Shown here in pieces: positions 16,281 through 61,955 of a stretch of DNA of 64,000 nucleotides. The stretch is taken from assembly GCF_029338255.1 (NCBI RefSeq), contig NZ_CP119787.1, positions 310,001 through 374,000 on the forward strand. Reading direction: 5' to 3'. Source of the stretch: Haloarcula halobia (GTDB lineage Archaea > Halobacteriota > Halobacteria > Halobacteriales > Haloarculaceae). Under the pieces are notes generated by a model. It was not told where the DNA came from, ran no database searches, and worked only from the letters and a program-made list of their open reading frames with translations. Position numbers and translations under genes: made by a program. How positions within the stretch are numbered: position 1 is the first letter of the stretch; the number at the start of each line of letters is the position of its first letter.

Positions 16281-18401
16281 ATGTCAGTCGCGCTCCAGAC
16301 GGTCACGCGACCGACGTTCTGGCGCATCGGGGACGTCGGCAAGGCCGTCTTCTACTACCTGGCGGCCGTCGCCCTCCTGGTGTTCCTCTTTGGGACCTAC
16401 GAGCGCGTCCGCCGGTACACGCGCGGGAGCGAGGACCCGTTCGATCGCCTCGACGACCTGCCGGGGCGGACGCTCGCGGCCGCCCGCCTCGCGCTGTCGA
16501 ACCGCAAGCAACTGGACCGGGACGTCGTCGCCGGCGTGATGCACGCCTTCGTCGTCTGGGGCTTCCTGACGCTGCTCATCGGCACGACGATACTGGGCAT
16601 CGACATGGACCTCTACCGGCCGCTGACCGGCGACTCCTTCTTCGTCGGGGACTTCTATCTCTCCTATTCGTTCGTGATGGACGCGATGGGGCTGTTGTTC
16701 GTCGTGGGGGTCGGTGTCGCGCTCTGGCGGCGCTACGGGCGCCGACTGGAGCGGCTCCACGGCCGGCACACCTCGCGCGAGGACGGGCTCTTTCTCGGCG
16801 CGCTGTTCGTGCTGGGCGTCGGCGGCTACGTCACCGAAGGCCTGCGCATCCTGGGGACCTCGGCGGTCCGGGACGTGAGCTTCGAGACGGTGAGCTTCGT
16901 CGGGTGGTCGATCGCAGAAGCGTTCTCGGCCGCCGGCGTCACCCCCCAGATGGCCACGACGGCCTACCCCGCCGTCTGGTGGAGCCACGCGCTCGTCGCC
17001 CTGTGGTTCGTCGCCTGGGTCCCCTACGCCAAGCCGTTCCACATGCTCTCGTCGTTCGCGAACCTCGTGACCCGCGACGAACAGGCCGGCGTCCGCCTCC
17101 CCGGCGTGCCCGCCGACGCCGCGCCCGAGGACATCGGCCCCAGCGAGATCGACGACTTCTCCTGGAAGCAGTTGCTCGACCACGACGCCTGCACGAAGTG
17201 TGGCCGCTGTTCGTCGGTCTGTCCCGCGAAGGCCTCGGGCCGGCCGCTCGACCCGCGGGACGTCATCCTGGACCTGAAACGCTACCGCGAGGACGTCGAC
17301 GCCGGCGGCGAGTCGGTCCCCATCGTCGCCGACGGGGGTGCCGCGAGCAGCGCGAGGGGCACGTCGTCGGACGCCTCCGACGGAAGGACCTCGGTCATCG
17401 ACGCGGAGACGATGGAGTCCTGTATGTCCTGCATGGCCTGCATGGACGCCTGCCCCGTCGACATCGAACACGTCACGCAGTTCACCGAGATGAACCGCCG
17501 GCTCACCGAATCGGGCGAGATGAACGAGCACGTCCAGGACGCGATGATGAACGTCTTCCAGCACGGCAACACCTTCGGCGACCCCGGGCGCACGCGACCC
17601 GACTGGACCGACGACCTCGCGTTCGAGGTGCCCGACGCCCGCGAGGAGCCCGTCGAGTTCCTCTGGTACGTCGGCGACTACCCGAGTTACGACGAGCGCA
17701 ACCGGCGCGTCGCCCGGGCGCTCGCCCGCGTCTTCGAGGCCGCCGACGTGGACTACGGGATCCTCTACGAGGCCGAGCAGACCGCCGGCAACGACGTCCG
17801 CCGCGTCGGCGAGGAGGGCCTCTACGAGATGCTCGTCAAGGACAACGCCGCCGCCATCGGGGACTGCGAGTACGACTCGATCGTCTGTACCGATCCCCAC
17901 GCCTACAACACCTTCAAAAACGAGTACCCCGAGTTCGAGGCCTGCGAGTGGGAGGCCGGCGACGTCTACCACTACACGCAGGTCGTCGCCGACCTCGCCG
18001 AATCGGGCGCACTGGGGCTGCGGGGCGACGAACTGGACTACACCGTCACCTACCACGACCCGTGTCACCTGGGGCGGTACAACGACGTCTTCGAGGCTCC
18101 CCGCGACCTCGTCCGGGCGACCGGTGCCGACCTCCACGAGATGCCGCGCAACCGCGCCGACTCCTTTTGCTGTGGGGGCGGTGGCGGCGGCCTCTGGATG
18201 GACTTCGAGGAGGACACCAAACCCAGCGAGGAGCGCCTGCGCGAGGCGCTGGAGGACACCGACGCCCCGGTCGAGACGTTCGTCGTCGCCTGCCCGATGT
18301 GCATGACGATGTACGAGGACGGCCGCAAGACCGGCGGCTACGAGGACGACATCGAGGTCGTGGGCATCACCGAGCTGCTCGCCGAGGCCGTCGACGCCTG
18401 A
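16281..18401 (+). CDS. Membrane-anchored heterodisulfide reductase-like Fe-S oxidoreductase
   Basis: A 706-residue electron-transfer protein. Residues 1-250 form a NarI-like membrane domain with several helices and His residues suited to haem b. Two 4Fe-4S motifs follow: CTKCGRCSSVCP near residue 304 and CMSCMACMDACP near 381. A C-terminal CCG-domain half has HDPCHLGRYN and FCCGGGGGG (about 630), then CPMC. It probably passes electrons between quinone and a soluble donor or thiol substrate. A TTTAAG box about 28 bp before the ATG indicates a leaderless start. Between the two Fe-S motifs sits a palindromic insert (residues about 353-369) listed separately. No partner flavoprotein gene is adjacent. 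Confidence 0.85.
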   Translation: MSVALQTVTRPTFWRIGDVGKAVFYYLAAVALLVFLFGTYERVRRYTRGSEDPFDRLDDLPGRTLAAARLALSNRKQLDRDVVAGVMHAFVVWGFLTLLIGTTILGIDMDLYRPLTGDSFFVGDFYLSYSFVMDAMGLLFVVGVGVALWRRYGRRLERLHGRHTSREDGLFLGALFVLGVGGYVTEGLRILGTSAVRDVSFETVSFVGWSIAEAFSAAGVTPQMATTAYPAVWWSHALVALWFVAWVPYAKPFHMLSSFANLVTRDEQAGVRLPGVPADAAPEDIGPSEIDDFSWKQLLDHDACTKCGRCSSVCPAKASGRPLDPRDVILDLKRYREDVDAGGESVPIVADGGAASSARGTSSDASDGRTSVIDAETMESCMSCMACMDACPVDIEHVTQFTEMNRRLTESGEMNEHVQDAMMNVFQHGNTFGDPGRTRPDWTDDLAFEVPDAREEPVEFLWYVGDYPSYDERNRRVARALARVFEAADVDYGILYEAEQTAGNDVRRVGEEGLYEMLVKDNAAAIGDCEYDSIVCTDPHAYNTFKNEYPEFEACEWEAGDVYHYTQVVADLAESGALGLRGDELDYTVTYHDPCHLGRYNDVFEAPRDLVRATGADLHEMPRNRADSFCCGGGGGGLWMDFEEDTKPSEERLREALEDTDAPVETFVVACPMCMTMYEDGRKTGGYEDDIEVVGITELLAEAVDA
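17338..17388 (+). repeat. In-frame palindromic mini-element inside the Fe-S oxidoreductase
   Basis: Two hairpins can be drawn. GTGCC at 17338-17342 pairs with GGCAC at 17358-17362, and CGTCGGA at 17365-17371 pairs perfectly with TCCGACG at 17376-17382. The insert encodes a Ser/Ala/Gly/Asp-rich peptide (ASSARGTSSDASDG) between ADGG and TSVIDAETMES, where, from memory of homologues, the two flanks are usually adjacent. It aligns in the same frame with an insert in kae1-bud32 at 60.9 kb: 32 of 41 bases by my count, with a 9-base gap. The first stem differs but still pairs. Confidence 0.65.
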
Positions 18402-48464: not shown

Positions 48465-49118
48465 TCAGTGGTCGGCGGCGGCCTCGGTGCCGTCAGGATG
48501 GTAGTCTGAGTTGGCGCGGGTCACGAGCGCGTCCCCGACCTCCTCGCCGAGGATCCAGGCGTTCTCCGGGAGGCCGTCGGCGGCGAGGCGGGCCGCGTAC
48601 TCGCGCAGCGAGGGCGAGGGATGGACGCCGGCGGCGGTGACGCCGGCGACGACGGCCAGTTCGCAGATGTCGGCCTCGAGGTTCTCGTCGATGGTCTCGT
48701 CGCCGGTGGTCTCCCGGACGGTCTGGTCGTGGCCGAACGAGCGGACGACGTCGACGGCCGCCTCCGCGGCCTCGGTGCGAGCGAGCAGGTAGAAGCCACG
48801 CGAGACGAGGACGTCGGCGATGAGGATGTCCAGGTTGGCGGCCTCGCGGTCGCCACCCTCCCAGGGGTCGTCCTGTGCGAGGTGGCGGGTGAGGGTGAGG
48901 CCCTCGTAGATGAGCTGGACGCCGGCGGCGCGGCCGGTGATGCCGTCGTCGAGGTCGGCCGGCCCGTCGGGGGCGGCCCGGGCGCTCACCAGGGTCAGCA
49001 CGCCGGGCGTGAGCGGGGCATCGGAGAGGCGGTCGGTGATCCGGTCGCGGAACCGGTCAGGCTCGACGTCCTCGACCGCGGCCAGGGCTGCTCGGCGAAC
49101 CGCCGCGACTTCCTGCAT
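48465..49118 (-). CDS. Haloarchaeal helical protein, prenyl-synthase-like
   Basis: A 217-residue all-helical protein. The segment NLDILIADVLVSRGFYLLAR resembles the helix that precedes the active site in polyprenyl diphosphate synthases or their non-catalytic partners, but no DDxxD motif is present. It may belong to the family labelled DUF7114; I am not certain. The ATG at 49118 fits. It is divergent from the enoyl-CoA hydratase gene across about 60 bp. Confidence 0.6.
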   Translation of the reverse strand: MQEVAAVRRAALAAVEDVEPDRFRDRITDRLSDAPLTPGVLTLVSARAAPDGPADLDDGITGRAAGVQLIYEGLTLTRHLAQDDPWEGGDREAANLDILIADVLVSRGFYLLARTEAAEAAVDVVRSFGHDQTVRETTGDETIDENLEADICELAVVAGVTAAGVHPSPSLREYAARLAADGLPENAWILGEEVGDALVTRANSDYHPDGTEAAADH

Positions 49119-49179
49119 TGGCCCTTTCTAGCGGCGGGAAGGCCAAAGACCTTTGGAAACGGCAGAGACAGGGGAAGGC

Positions 49180-49857
49180 ATGATACGGACGACGGCAGCC
49201 GGTGACGTCTGCGAGGTGCGCCTCGACCGGCCCGAGCGGCGCAACGCGCTCACACGCGAGGGGCTTTCGGCCCTGGAGTCGGCCGTCGCGGACGCCACGG
49301 CACCCGTGCTCTACCTCGCCGGCGCGGGCCCGGCCTTCTGTGCGGGGGCTGACCTCGACGTCGTCCGGTCGCTGGATGCCGAGTCGGCAAGCGAGTTCGC
49401 CGCGCTGGGCCAGCGGGTAGCACGCAGGCTGGCGACCTACGACGGGGCCGTCGTCGCGGGCGTCGACGGGGCCGCCCGCGGGGGCGGGGTCGAGCTGGCG
49501 CTGGCCTGTGACCTGCGGGTGGCGACACCCGACGCGACGTTCGCCGAGACGGGCGTCAAACTCGGCCTGTTCGGGGCCTGGGGCGGGACGGCGCGACTCC
49601 CGACTGTCGTCGGGCAGGGCGAGGCGCTGGACCTGGCACTCTCCGGGCGCACCGTCGACGCCGAGGGGGCCCTGCGGATGGGGTTGGTCTCGCGAGTGAC
49701 TGACGACCCACAACGGGTGGCCGACGAGCTGGCGAGCGTCGACCACGACGCCCTCCGGCGGGTGAAGGCGCTGGTCCGCGAGGACACCCCGCTGGCGACC
49801 CAGGAGCGACGCGAACGCGAGGCCTTCGCCGCGCTCGTGTCCGCGGGGGCCCCGTGA
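49180..49857 (+). CDS. Enoyl-CoA hydratase/isomerase family protein
   Basis: A crotonase-fold protein of about 225 residues. The oxyanion-hole segments AGAGPAFCAGADLDVV and DGAARGGGVELALACDLR are present, followed by FAETGVKLGLFGAWGGTARL. It would act in fatty-acid or amino-acid degradation, hydrating or isomerising enoyl-CoA. It is shorter than the usual 255-260 residues, mainly at the C-terminus. I start at the ATG at 49180 with GGGGAAGG just before it; a TTG 27 bases upstream is less likely. Confidence 0.85.
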   Translation: MIRTTAAGDVCEVRLDRPERRNALTREGLSALESAVADATAPVLYLAGAGPAFCAGADLDVVRSLDAESASEFAALGQRVARRLATYDGAVVAGVDGAARGGGVELALACDLRVATPDATFAETGVKLGLFGAWGGTARLPTVVGQGEALDLALSGRTVDAEGALRMGLVSRVTDDPQRVADELASVDHDALRRVKALVREDTPLATQERREREAFAALVSAGAP

Positions 49858-49906
49858 CCCGCGGCGGACCGCACGTTGAAACCCCCCGGCCGCCTACGGG
49901 ACCCAA

Positions 49907-51452: not shown

Positions 51453-51623
51453 ACGCGTTGGTAGGTCGGTGTGAACTAATAGCCACTCATCGTGGCGACA
51501 TTTTCGAACGGACGTCCACTCCCGACCGCCGGCGAGTCCAGCGACGGCGCCCGGAAGCGCTACGTTGAAGTGCGACCGACGTGGACTCTGGGATGCAAAC
51601 CGAGTGACGTGCGCCTGTGGTGA

Positions 51624-51674
51624 GCGATTCCGCAGGAATCGCGAGCCTCGGGGCGCGAACGAAGTGAGCGCGCC
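51624..51674. repeat. Palindromic sequences just upstream of tRNA-Gly
   Basis: GCGATTCC at 51624-51631 pairs perfectly with GGAATCGC at 51635-51642 (3-nt loop). GGCGCG at 51652-51657 pairs with CGCGCC at 51669-51674 around a loop AACGAAGTGAG. The second unit resembles the GCGAACGACGTG core of the kae1-bud32 insert. The right arm runs into the first bases of tRNA-Gly. It may be a non-coding relative of the in-frame palindromic inserts, or a processing or promoter structure. Confidence 0.5.
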
Positions 51675-51740
51675 GGTGGTCCAGTGGTAGGACATTGGCT
51701 TCCCAAGCCAATAGCCCGGGTTCAATTCCCGGCCGGCGCA
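51670..51740 (+). tRNA. tRNA-Gly (anticodon CCC)
   Basis: A complete cloverleaf. The acceptor GCGCCGG pairs with CCGGCGC, the D-arm GTCC/GGAC is normal, and the anticodon stem TTGGC/GCCAA carries the loop TTCCCAA, so the anticodon is CCC. The T-stem CCGGG/CCCGG carries TTCAATT. The discriminator is A; CCA is not encoded and there is no intron. Codons read: GGG. It lies alone downstream of nadE on the opposite strand. Confidence 0.95.
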
Positions 51741-60176: not shown

Positions 60177-61955
60177 ATGCGCGTTCTCGGTATCGAGGGG
60201 ACCGCCTGGGCAGCCAGTGCTGCGATATTCGAGACCGACCGGTGGGCGGGCGCGACTGCGCGGGAGAACGACCGTGCTCCCGGTGGTTTCGAGACGACGG
60301 ACCCGACAGCCGCGAACGACGCCGATCACGCGTTCATCGAGACCGACGCCTACCAGCCCGAGAGCGGCGGCATCCACCCGCGCGAGGCCGCCGAGCACAT
60401 GGGCGAGGCCATCCCGCAGGTCGTCGGGACGGCGCTCGAGCACGCCCGCGAGCGGGCCCGGGCGGCCGGTGACGACGGAGGCGCGCCCGTCGACGCAGTC
60501 GCCTTCTCCCGCGGCCCCGGCCTCGGCCCCTGCCTCCGTATCGTCGGGACCGCAGCGAGAGCGGTCGCCCAGCGCTTCGACGTGCCGCTCGTGGGCGTCA
60601 ACCACATGGTCGCTCACCTGGAGGTCGGGCGCCACCAGTCGGGCTTTTCCTCGCCGGTCTGCCTGAACGCCTCCGGCGCGAACGCCCACCTGCTGGGCTA
60701 CCGCAGCGGCCGCTACCGCGTGCTGGGCGAGACGATGGACACCGGCGTCGGAAACGCCATCGACAAGTTCACCCGTCACCTCGGCTGGTCCCACCCCGGC
60801 GGGCCGAAGGTCGAGGCCCACGCGAAGGAGGGGGAGTACCACCCGTTGCCCTACGTCGTCAAGGGGATGGACTTCTCCTTTTCGGGCATCATGAGCGCCG
60901 CCAAGCAGGCCGTCGGCGACGGCGTCTCCGCGAGCAATGCGAGCGGAGGCTCGTCGGGCGAACGACGTGCGTCCGACGGTGTACCGGTCGAGGACGTCTG
61001 TCGCGGCTTGGAGGAGACCATCTTCGCGATGCTCACCGAGGTGTCGGAGCGCGCCCTCTCGCTGACAGACGCCGACGAACTGGTGCTGGGCGGCGGCGTC
61101 GGCCAGAACGAACGCCTCCAGGGGATGCTCCGGGAGATGTGCGAGCAACGTGGCGCGGACTTCTACGCCCCCGAGAACCGCTTTCTCAGAGACAATGCCG
61201 GCATGATCGCGATGCTCGGCGCGAAGATGTACGCGGCGGGCGACACGCTGGCAATCGAGGATTCGGGCATCGACGCGGACTTCCGGCCCGACGAGGTGGC
61301 GGTGACCTGGCGCGGCGACGAGGCGGTCGGGGCCGGCCACCGCGGCGCGGCCGCCGACGCCGCAGTCCAGGGCGCGGAGGCGACCGTCTCCTTCGAAGGC
61401 GACCGTGTCGTCAAGGACCGCGTCCCCCGCTCGTATCGTCATCCCGAACTCGACGACCGCCTGCGCGTCGAGCGCACCCGCCAGGAGGTCCGGCTCACAA
61501 GCGAGGCGCGCCGTCACGGCGTCCCGACGCCGCTGGTCCGTGACGTCGATCCACAGAACGCTCGCATCGTCTTCCAGCGCGTCGGCGACTGCGACCTGCG
61601 GGCAGCGCTGACGGCCGACAGGGTCCGGGACGTGGGCCGGCACCTCGCCCGCATCCACGACGCCGGGTTCGTCCACGGCGACCCGACGACGCGGAACGTG
61701 CGGGTCGGGACTCAGCGGGAGAACGCCGACCGCCCGCGGACCTTCCTCATCGACTTCGGGCTGGGCTATTACACCCGGGAGGCCGAGGACCACGCGATGG
61801 ACCTGCACGTCCTCTCGCAGTCGCTGGCGGGGACGGCCGACGACGACGCGGCGCTGGTCGCGGCCGCCGAGGAGGCCTACCGAGAGACGAGCGACCACGC
61901 CGACGATGTGTTCCAGAGCCTGGCGGACATCGAGGGACGCGGGCGGTACCAGTAG
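60177..61955 (+). CDS. Kae1-Bud32 fusion (KEOPS t6A synthase and kinase)
   Basis: A 592-residue bifunctional protein of the t6A pathway. Residues 1-370 are Kae1/TsaD: MRVLGIEGTAWAASAAIF, the metal pair HMVAH near 142-146, and VLGGGVGQNERL. Residues about 405-592 are the Bud32 kinase/ATPase: VHGDPTTRNVRV and IDFGLGYYTREAED. The linker between is Ala/Gly-rich. Two extra stretches are present: residues about 19-45 (rich in Arg/Asp/Gly) and the palindromic insert at about 248-268. It uses the threonylcarbamoyl-AMP made by the Sua5-type enzyme at 14.2 kb. The ATG at 60177 is clear. Confidence 0.94.
   Translation: MRVLGIEGTAWAASAAIFETDRWAGATARENDRAPGGFETTDPTAANDADHAFIETDAYQPESGGIHPREAAEHMGEAIPQVVGTALEHARERARAAGDDGGAPVDAVAFSRGPGLGPCLRIVGTAARAVAQRFDVPLVGVNHMVAHLEVGRHQSGFSSPVCLNASGANAHLLGYRSGRYRVLGETMDTGVGNAIDKFTRHLGWSHPGGPKVEAHAKEGEYHPLPYVVKGMDFSFSGIMSAAKQAVGDGVSASNASGGSSGERRASDGVPVEDVCRGLEETIFAMLTEVSERALSLTDADELVLGGGVGQNERLQGMLREMCEQRGADFYAPENRFLRDNAGMIAMLGAKMYAAGDTLAIEDSGIDADFRPDEVAVTWRGDEAVGAGHRGAAADAAVQGAEATVSFEGDRVVKDRVPRSYRHPELDDRLRVERTRQEVRLTSEARRHGVPTPLVRDVDPQNARIVFQRVGDCDLRAALTADRVRDVGRHLARIHDAGFVHGDPTTRNVRVGTQRENADRPRTFLIDFGLGYYTREAEDHAMDLHVLSQSLAGTADDDAALVAAAEEAYRETSDHADDVFQSLADIEGRGRYQ
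60924..60979 (+). repeat. In-frame palindromic mini-element inside kae1-bud32
   Basis: CTCCGC at 60926-60931 pairs with GCGGAG at 60943-60948, and CGTCGG at 60952-60957 pairs with CCGACG at 60973-60978. The encoded peptide is SASNASGGSSGERRASDG, placed in a surface loop between AAKQAVGDG and VEDVCRGLEET. It aligns in frame with the insert in the Fe-S oxidoreductase (A-S-x-A-x-G-x-S-S ... A-S-D-G), with three extra codons. The first stem differs between the two, yet pairing is kept. Confidence 0.65.

Follow-up and report, generated by a model that had tools for sequence, protein, structure and literature searches.

Two genes in the window, the 64,000-nucleotide stretch of Haloarcula halobia DNA analysed here, each carry a short in-frame insert that folds into two hairpins. 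The first host gene (16281..18401, + strand) is an open reading frame for a membrane Fe-S oxidoreductase of 706 residues with two 4Fe-4S motifs; it matched TfrB/LdhH-like NCBIfam families at scores under the family cut-offs. Its insert, located by orthologue alignment and by matches to two covariance models (R1 and R2, described below), lies between the two 4Fe-4S motifs, occupies 48 bp or 16 codons (17337..17384, +) and encodes the peptide GAASSARGTSSDASDG. Hairpin 1 of this copy (17337..17363, +; 27 nt), assigned from the fold and the family alignment, has a GTGCC/GGCAC stem and a GAGC-AGC-GCGA tip. Hairpin 2, assigned from the fold (17365..17382, +; CGTCGGA/TCCGACG), is 9 nt shorter than the full-length hairpin 2 that the family alignment displays in other copies. 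The second host gene (60177..61955, +) encodes bifunctional Kae1-Bud32, 592 residues long from this ATG (NF007174, 772.6 bits). Located by orthologue alignment and R2, its insert spans 57 bp or 19 codons (60924..60980, +), encodes VSASNASGGSSGERRASDG and forms two hairpins of 27 nt each (60924..60950 and 60952..60978, both +) supported by the fold and by covariation. Comparison with PDB 2vwb (E 5.8e-96) puts the Kae1-Bud32 insert at a gapped turn, at about 2vwb residues 211-216; the AlphaFold models of the two hosts, with mean pLDDT of 52 and 37.5, were too low in confidence for placing the inserts on structure.

The two inserts align in frame, with 35 of 48 bases identical over the gapless parts (25/36 and 10/12) and a gap of 9 bases within hairpin 2. 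The hairpin 1 stems differ, GTGCC/GGCAC in the Fe-S copy versus CTCCGC/GCGGAG in the kae1 copy, with pairing intact in both, and the hairpin 2 stem CGTCGG/CCGACG is common to the two. The first-pass annotation, made from the letters of this DNA, had placed both inserts to within 1-4 bases of these limits; its in-frame alignment holds, at 35/48 over the gapless parts against its own count of 32/41, and the fold bears out its description of a first hairpin that differs yet pairs and a second whose stem is shared.

Filled and empty sites were compared for four genes, those for the Fe-S oxidoreductase, kae1, riboflavin synthase and the archaeosine enzyme RaSEA, at about 30 loci each; insert limits were drawn from translated alignment against relatives. 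The Fe-S insert is present at two of 30 loci, in the window's own genome (G000) and in G023, and is missing from the nearer G013, the closest relative with a protein 94% identical, as well as from 27 other orthologues. Its empty site reads GACGGG^GGC and the filled site is longer by 48 bp; an identity scan around the copy found no clear tract common with G023. In kae1 the insert is full in six of 30 loci and shortened in one, adding 57 bp to the empty site GACGGC^GTC, and riboflavin synthase (filled at 2/30 loci; empty site GGGGAT^GAC) likewise gains 57 bp. RaSEA, filled at 3/30 loci, offers the cleanest site: ACCGCCGAC^GAGGACGTC becomes ACCGCCGAC[GTC...GGT]GAGGACGTC, a gain of 57 bp with no loss and no duplication. 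Across the four genes the inserted unit is [GTC...GGT], cleanly inserted and free of target duplication, and the target motif resembles CGNN^G, alike in coding and non-coding copies. Because a G flanks most sites on both sides, the ends of the element are fixed only to within one base. Terminal inverted repeats and target-site duplication, by which classical MITEs are recognised, were both absent from these filled/empty comparisons, and in both respects the element is unlike a classical MITE. The entire RaSEA gene with its element occurs twice in identical form, at 48759-49880 and 3333825-3334946, near both ends of contig 1 of the window's genome, which could reflect either a genuine duplication or terminal redundancy in the assembly. 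At two other loci a copy sits inside a partial tRNA-Leu(CAA) duplicate, between GGG and GTCC, with the intact tRNA gene adjoining; a near-GTCC duplication adjoins these copies in the tRNA-Leu fragment, and reading it as a target duplication was rejected, since the protein-gene sites show none.

Two covariance models were used to follow the family: R1, derived from kae1 copies only, and the broader R2, built without the Fe-S copy and with the kae1-bud32 copy. R1 gave 10 matches in the window's genome with E no higher than 1, including the Fe-S copy (E 0.005, genome-wide search), and it matched 31 of the 32 genomes of the genus. R2 recovered the Fe-S copy at E 4e-4 in a search of the window, where the kae1-bud32 copy, itself part of the model, scored E 9.5e-15. 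At E 1e-4, R2 matched 51 of 295 phylum genomes, 50 of them from the window's order and one, a weak match, from outside it; three members of the order are listed without an R2 match. A scan of 85,000 species with a DNA pattern of 23 fixed bases returned 85 stretches, all haloarchaeal by record title. Similar sequence was found on plasmids from eight haloarchaeal genera, and the phage records searched held no match to the element. Most copies are non-coding, and some adjoin tRNA and RNase P genes. In agreement with the first-pass annotation, which knew of no named haloarchaeal family, Rfam at the gathering score matched only tRNA and RNase P in the element-bearing loci, leaving the element itself without a family, and no haloarchaeal description of it was found in the open-access papers searched. 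Apart from the two copies, a scan of the window for GAGCNNNGCGA gave chance numbers only. A weaker third match in the window (51617..51678, +; R2 33.1 bits, E 2.3e-5 in the window) is non-coding and of uncertain membership; it overlaps the 5' end of a tRNA-Gly(CCC) gene (51670-51740, ARAGORN) and is not among the matches listed in the whole-genome search. A similar match occurs at one further locus, at GCGCCGGTGGTCTAGTGG, and the right end of the element, CGGTGG, equals the start of tRNA-Gly(CCC), perhaps by chance.

The full element of 57 bp consists of hairpin 1 (27 nt), T, hairpin 2 (27 nt) and GT; each hairpin is built of 8 bp, a GA/GA internal loop, 2 bp and a triloop, and the 48-bp form has 9 nt less in hairpin 2. 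The initial GTC is the base of stem 1, with columns 4-6 paired in 80-100% of sequences, and the element ends in CGGT. Over 56 copies aligned without gaps, 97.4% of cells were paired compared with 80.2% after shuffling. Both partners had changed in 16 of 20 pairs, and the score for covariation was 0.51 against 0.17 for shuffled alignments and about 0.1 for slid structures. Because copies found by their structure could bias the pairing score, we also tested the DNA-pattern hits, for which pairing was no criterion: the free hairpin-2 positions were Watson-Crick in 205/219 cases (shuffled mean 115, maximum 133) and the hairpin-1 arms in 272/365 (shuffled mean 136, maximum 174). The folding energy of the Fe-S copy alone is unexceptional (z about -1), so the case for this copy is family evidence. 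At five loci the hairpin-1 loop holds another double hairpin, of a different kind and about 50-60 bp long, and the hairpin-1 arms remain fully complementary; one of these, L147, lies within a reading frame.

Could the inserts be ordinary variable Ser/Ala/Gly/Asp loops, alike through composition and codon bias? The peptide is low-complexity and typical of halophilic linkers, and the Fe-S copies alone fold no better than about 14-19% of their own shuffles; the same 57/48-bp ends, the pairs in which both partners have changed and the abrupt absence from close orthologues all speak against such loops, and the copies in non-coding DNA with the same ends and pairing refute them, which leaves this reading a negligible likelihood. 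The first-pass annotation had itself reasoned that a mere loop would appear across all related genera as one peptide at one position, with ordinary codon drift and no conserved pairing. The alignment of homologues that it proposed found the insert absent from most orthologues, close relatives included, with insertion points that differ between genes, and the covariance-model search that it also proposed found matches in nearly the whole genus and across the order, with strong paired changes. Its proposal of a mobile, structured sequence that tolerates translation is thus supported by absence in close relatives, differing insertion points and paired changes. Beyond that proposal lie the exact ends, the target motif, the two-hairpin grammar with C-GNA-G tips, the non-coding copies and the single reading frame.

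The tips of the hairpins bear on whether the structure acts as DNA or RNA. GNA triloops occupy loop 1 in 42 of 73 copies and loop 2 in 43 of 73, where equal triplet use predicts 4/64. C-GNA-G loops, best known as GCGAAGC, form exceptionally stable DNA mini-hairpins. We lean towards a role at the DNA level because C-GNA-G tips are so stable in this form; the concept of stable DNA mini-hairpins is set out in PMC10527192. The same covariation would come from RNA pairing, and covariation therefore makes no choice between DNA and RNA. A structured RNA element, acting in processing, termination or stability and copied round genomes with mobility incidental, would suit the non-coding majority of copies, some of them next to tRNA and RNase P genes, and the strong RNA folding of the kae1-type copies. 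A common RNA function leaves insertion into about 30 unrelated reading frames unexplained; together with a hairpin tip known for its stability in DNA and the lack of an Rfam match, this makes the RNA reading improbable.

Testing of 202 copies by flanking codon-position GC and acidity gave 45 that look coding, at 33 distinct putative sites. Hosts include TrpG, MetG, RaSEA, Kae1, GatA, MetE, riboflavin synthase, a DEAD-box-type helicase and histidine kinases, some named from NCBIfam and others from reading of the sequences. At 30 of the 33 putative sites the element stands in the same strand and phase, and the shared-frame peptide is V-x-A-S-E-A-S-G-G-S-x-D-E-R-S-E-S-x-G; the three exceptions, of which L124 and L201 are doubtful ORFs with basic products and L321 is an odd match, were judged spurious after the results had been seen. 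Among CGNN^G sites in element-bearing genes, 34% are in sense phase 0 and 41% in antisense phase 0, so the target accounts for phase 0 and not for strand. In sense phase 0 the peptide contains 6 acidic residues and 1 basic; in antisense phase 0 it contains 2 acidic and 4 basic residues and more hydrophobics. Selection against the antisense phase-0 peptide is the simplest reason for the one-strand pattern, and a strand-specific insertion step may also produce it. Within genes, the element is apparently a tolerated acidic linker that is translated. An acidic peptide that is always in one frame would also be consistent with a useful halophile-adaptation peptide spread via recombination between genes, a very improbable account in view of its absence from most orthologues in equally halophilic congeners and of hairpin pairing that is maintained in non-coding copies too.

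Among known systems, a close functional likeness is to the Rickettsia palindromic elements, which the first-pass annotation had named as a precedent. These are short palindromic mobile DNAs found in intergenic DNA, in frame in unrelated conserved protein genes, where they are tolerated as added peptide, and also in RNA genes (PMC2229807, PMC10969869). The present element shares these functional features: it is dispersed and palindromic, stands in frame in about 30 distinct genes besides its non-coding copies, and is absent from relatives' orthologues in the four genes compared. The precedent does not extend to sequence features such as size and terminal inverted repeats. Rickettsia palindromic elements measure 105-150 bp and have 12-bp terminal inverted repeats and a long stem-loop, whereas the present element, of 48/57 bp, consists of two tandem hairpins with no inverted terminal repeat, has GTC... 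and ...CGGT as its two ends, has a CGNN^G target and is nearly confined to the haloarchaeal order. It is functionally like the Rickettsia elements, yet a separate haloarchaea-specific family. Protein-coding palindromic repeats are also reported from Wolbachia (WPE) and from Methanocaldococcus jannaschii (Suyama et al. 2005); these resemble the present element in palindromy and coding potential, a comparison by description and not by sequence. The M. jannaschii repeats, cited in PMC2229807 and PMC2996958, are an archaeal precedent; that organism is not a haloarchaeon, and beyond the haloarchaea the model gave almost no matches in the sampled phylum. REP families, like the present element, are short hairpins, sometimes intragenic, and the CGTC-tagged REPs among them likewise have no dedicated transposase (PMC3733652). 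In the CGTC-tagged REPs the CGTC tag is unpaired and the tail is CCA-like, whereas in the present element the GTC pairs within stem 1 and the last bases are CGGT. The text of PMC3733652 contains no match to 'halo'.

Past movement of the element is shown by near-identical copies in unrelated genes and by the nested double hairpins; mobility is here a matter of history. The metE and helicase copies, in unrelated genes, are identical at 46 of 48 positions, the triloop being the sole difference. No dedicated transposase was linked to the element, and the genome holds one PF01797 (Y1) gene. The Y1 gene checked, in one genome, is flanked by different palindromes, CCCACGACT..AGTCGTGGG, and the Y1 transposase was rejected as mobiliser in its own genome, the sole gene carrying unrelated palindromes. 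Autonomous versions with far-apart arms and hairpins flanking a gene were not seen at the element loci examined, which yielded only the nested inserts of about 50-60 bp. Haloarchaea are known to harbour transposase-free repeats with palindromes and no target duplication, the Haloquadratum PATEs and SMRs (PMC3119063). The PATEs described there include 52-bp terminal-only forms with palindromes and without inverted terminal repeats or target duplication, and the present element likewise has near-terminal palindromes and lacks target duplication, which suggests that it might be a terminal-only relic of IS605-type transposons, moved by the TnpA of that family. We consider such an origin unlikely: PATE palindromes, as that source gives them, resemble IS605 ends and adjoin longer terminal sequence, whereas the present palindromes are not shared with the only Y1-type locus of the genome (one genome's Y1 gene) and the target is CGNN^G. 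SMRs differ in being 80-110 bp long with terminal inverted repeats, and in-frame coding use of PATEs or SMRs is not described in the passages of PMC3119063 consulted.

Taken together, the evidence is best explained, with a probability of roughly 0.8, by a family of non-autonomous mobile mini-elements that spans the haloarchaea and whose members normally measure 57 bp. Dispersed copies at unrelated sites, precise presence or absence, fixed ends and conserved pairing were all observed. Judging from the C-GNA-G tips and the absent target duplication, our best guess is a single-stranded-DNA element mobilised in trans. The element would be recognised as folded single-stranded DNA via its C-GNA-G tips (e.g. 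GCGAAGC), and an enzyme supplied in trans would cut and join it in an IS200/IS605-type manner. Survival in genes would follow from a length that is a multiple of three without stops, from a target mostly between GNN codons, and from a sense phase-0 reading that yields an acidic, small-residue linker tolerable to a halophilic protein, other readings presumably being purged by selection. It is conceivable, if doubtful, that the family represents a self-contained ultra-short mobile class, in which paired C-GNA-G DNA hairpins are recognised and insertion is possibly strand-specific relative to the gene; just as tentatively, a CGNN^G target, a length divisible by three and an acidic reading would make that class compatible with translation inside haloarchaeal genes. 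If such a class exists, it would call for a new recombinase, or for a known one acting in a way so far unrecognised.

The best-known examples of palindromic mobile elements that code for protein come from obligate intracellular bacteria. With a family in free-living haloarchaea, several of them genetically tractable, the movement of such elements and their absorption by proteins become testable. The family accounts for insertions in housekeeping proteins such as Kae1, RaSEA, riboflavin synthase, MetE, GatA and aminoacyl-tRNA synthetases, and the 57-nt covariance model serves as an annotation tool for such insertions.

Two further kinds of hairpin sequence were seen alongside. A form with a 4-nt hairpin-1 loop (two loci and plasmid hits H1-H7) occurs on Haloarcula plasmids, is non-coding and is mostly present once per plasmid; on pHH126 it adjoins a SOSS-B-like single-strand-binding gene. 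A second double-hairpin type, at eight loci of the window's own genome, has the order AGCAT-hairpin-GTTTCAC-hairpin followed by TTTTTCGCCCACGTTTTTC-like sequence, and includes one cluster of three at a spacing of about 164 bp (587622-588007).
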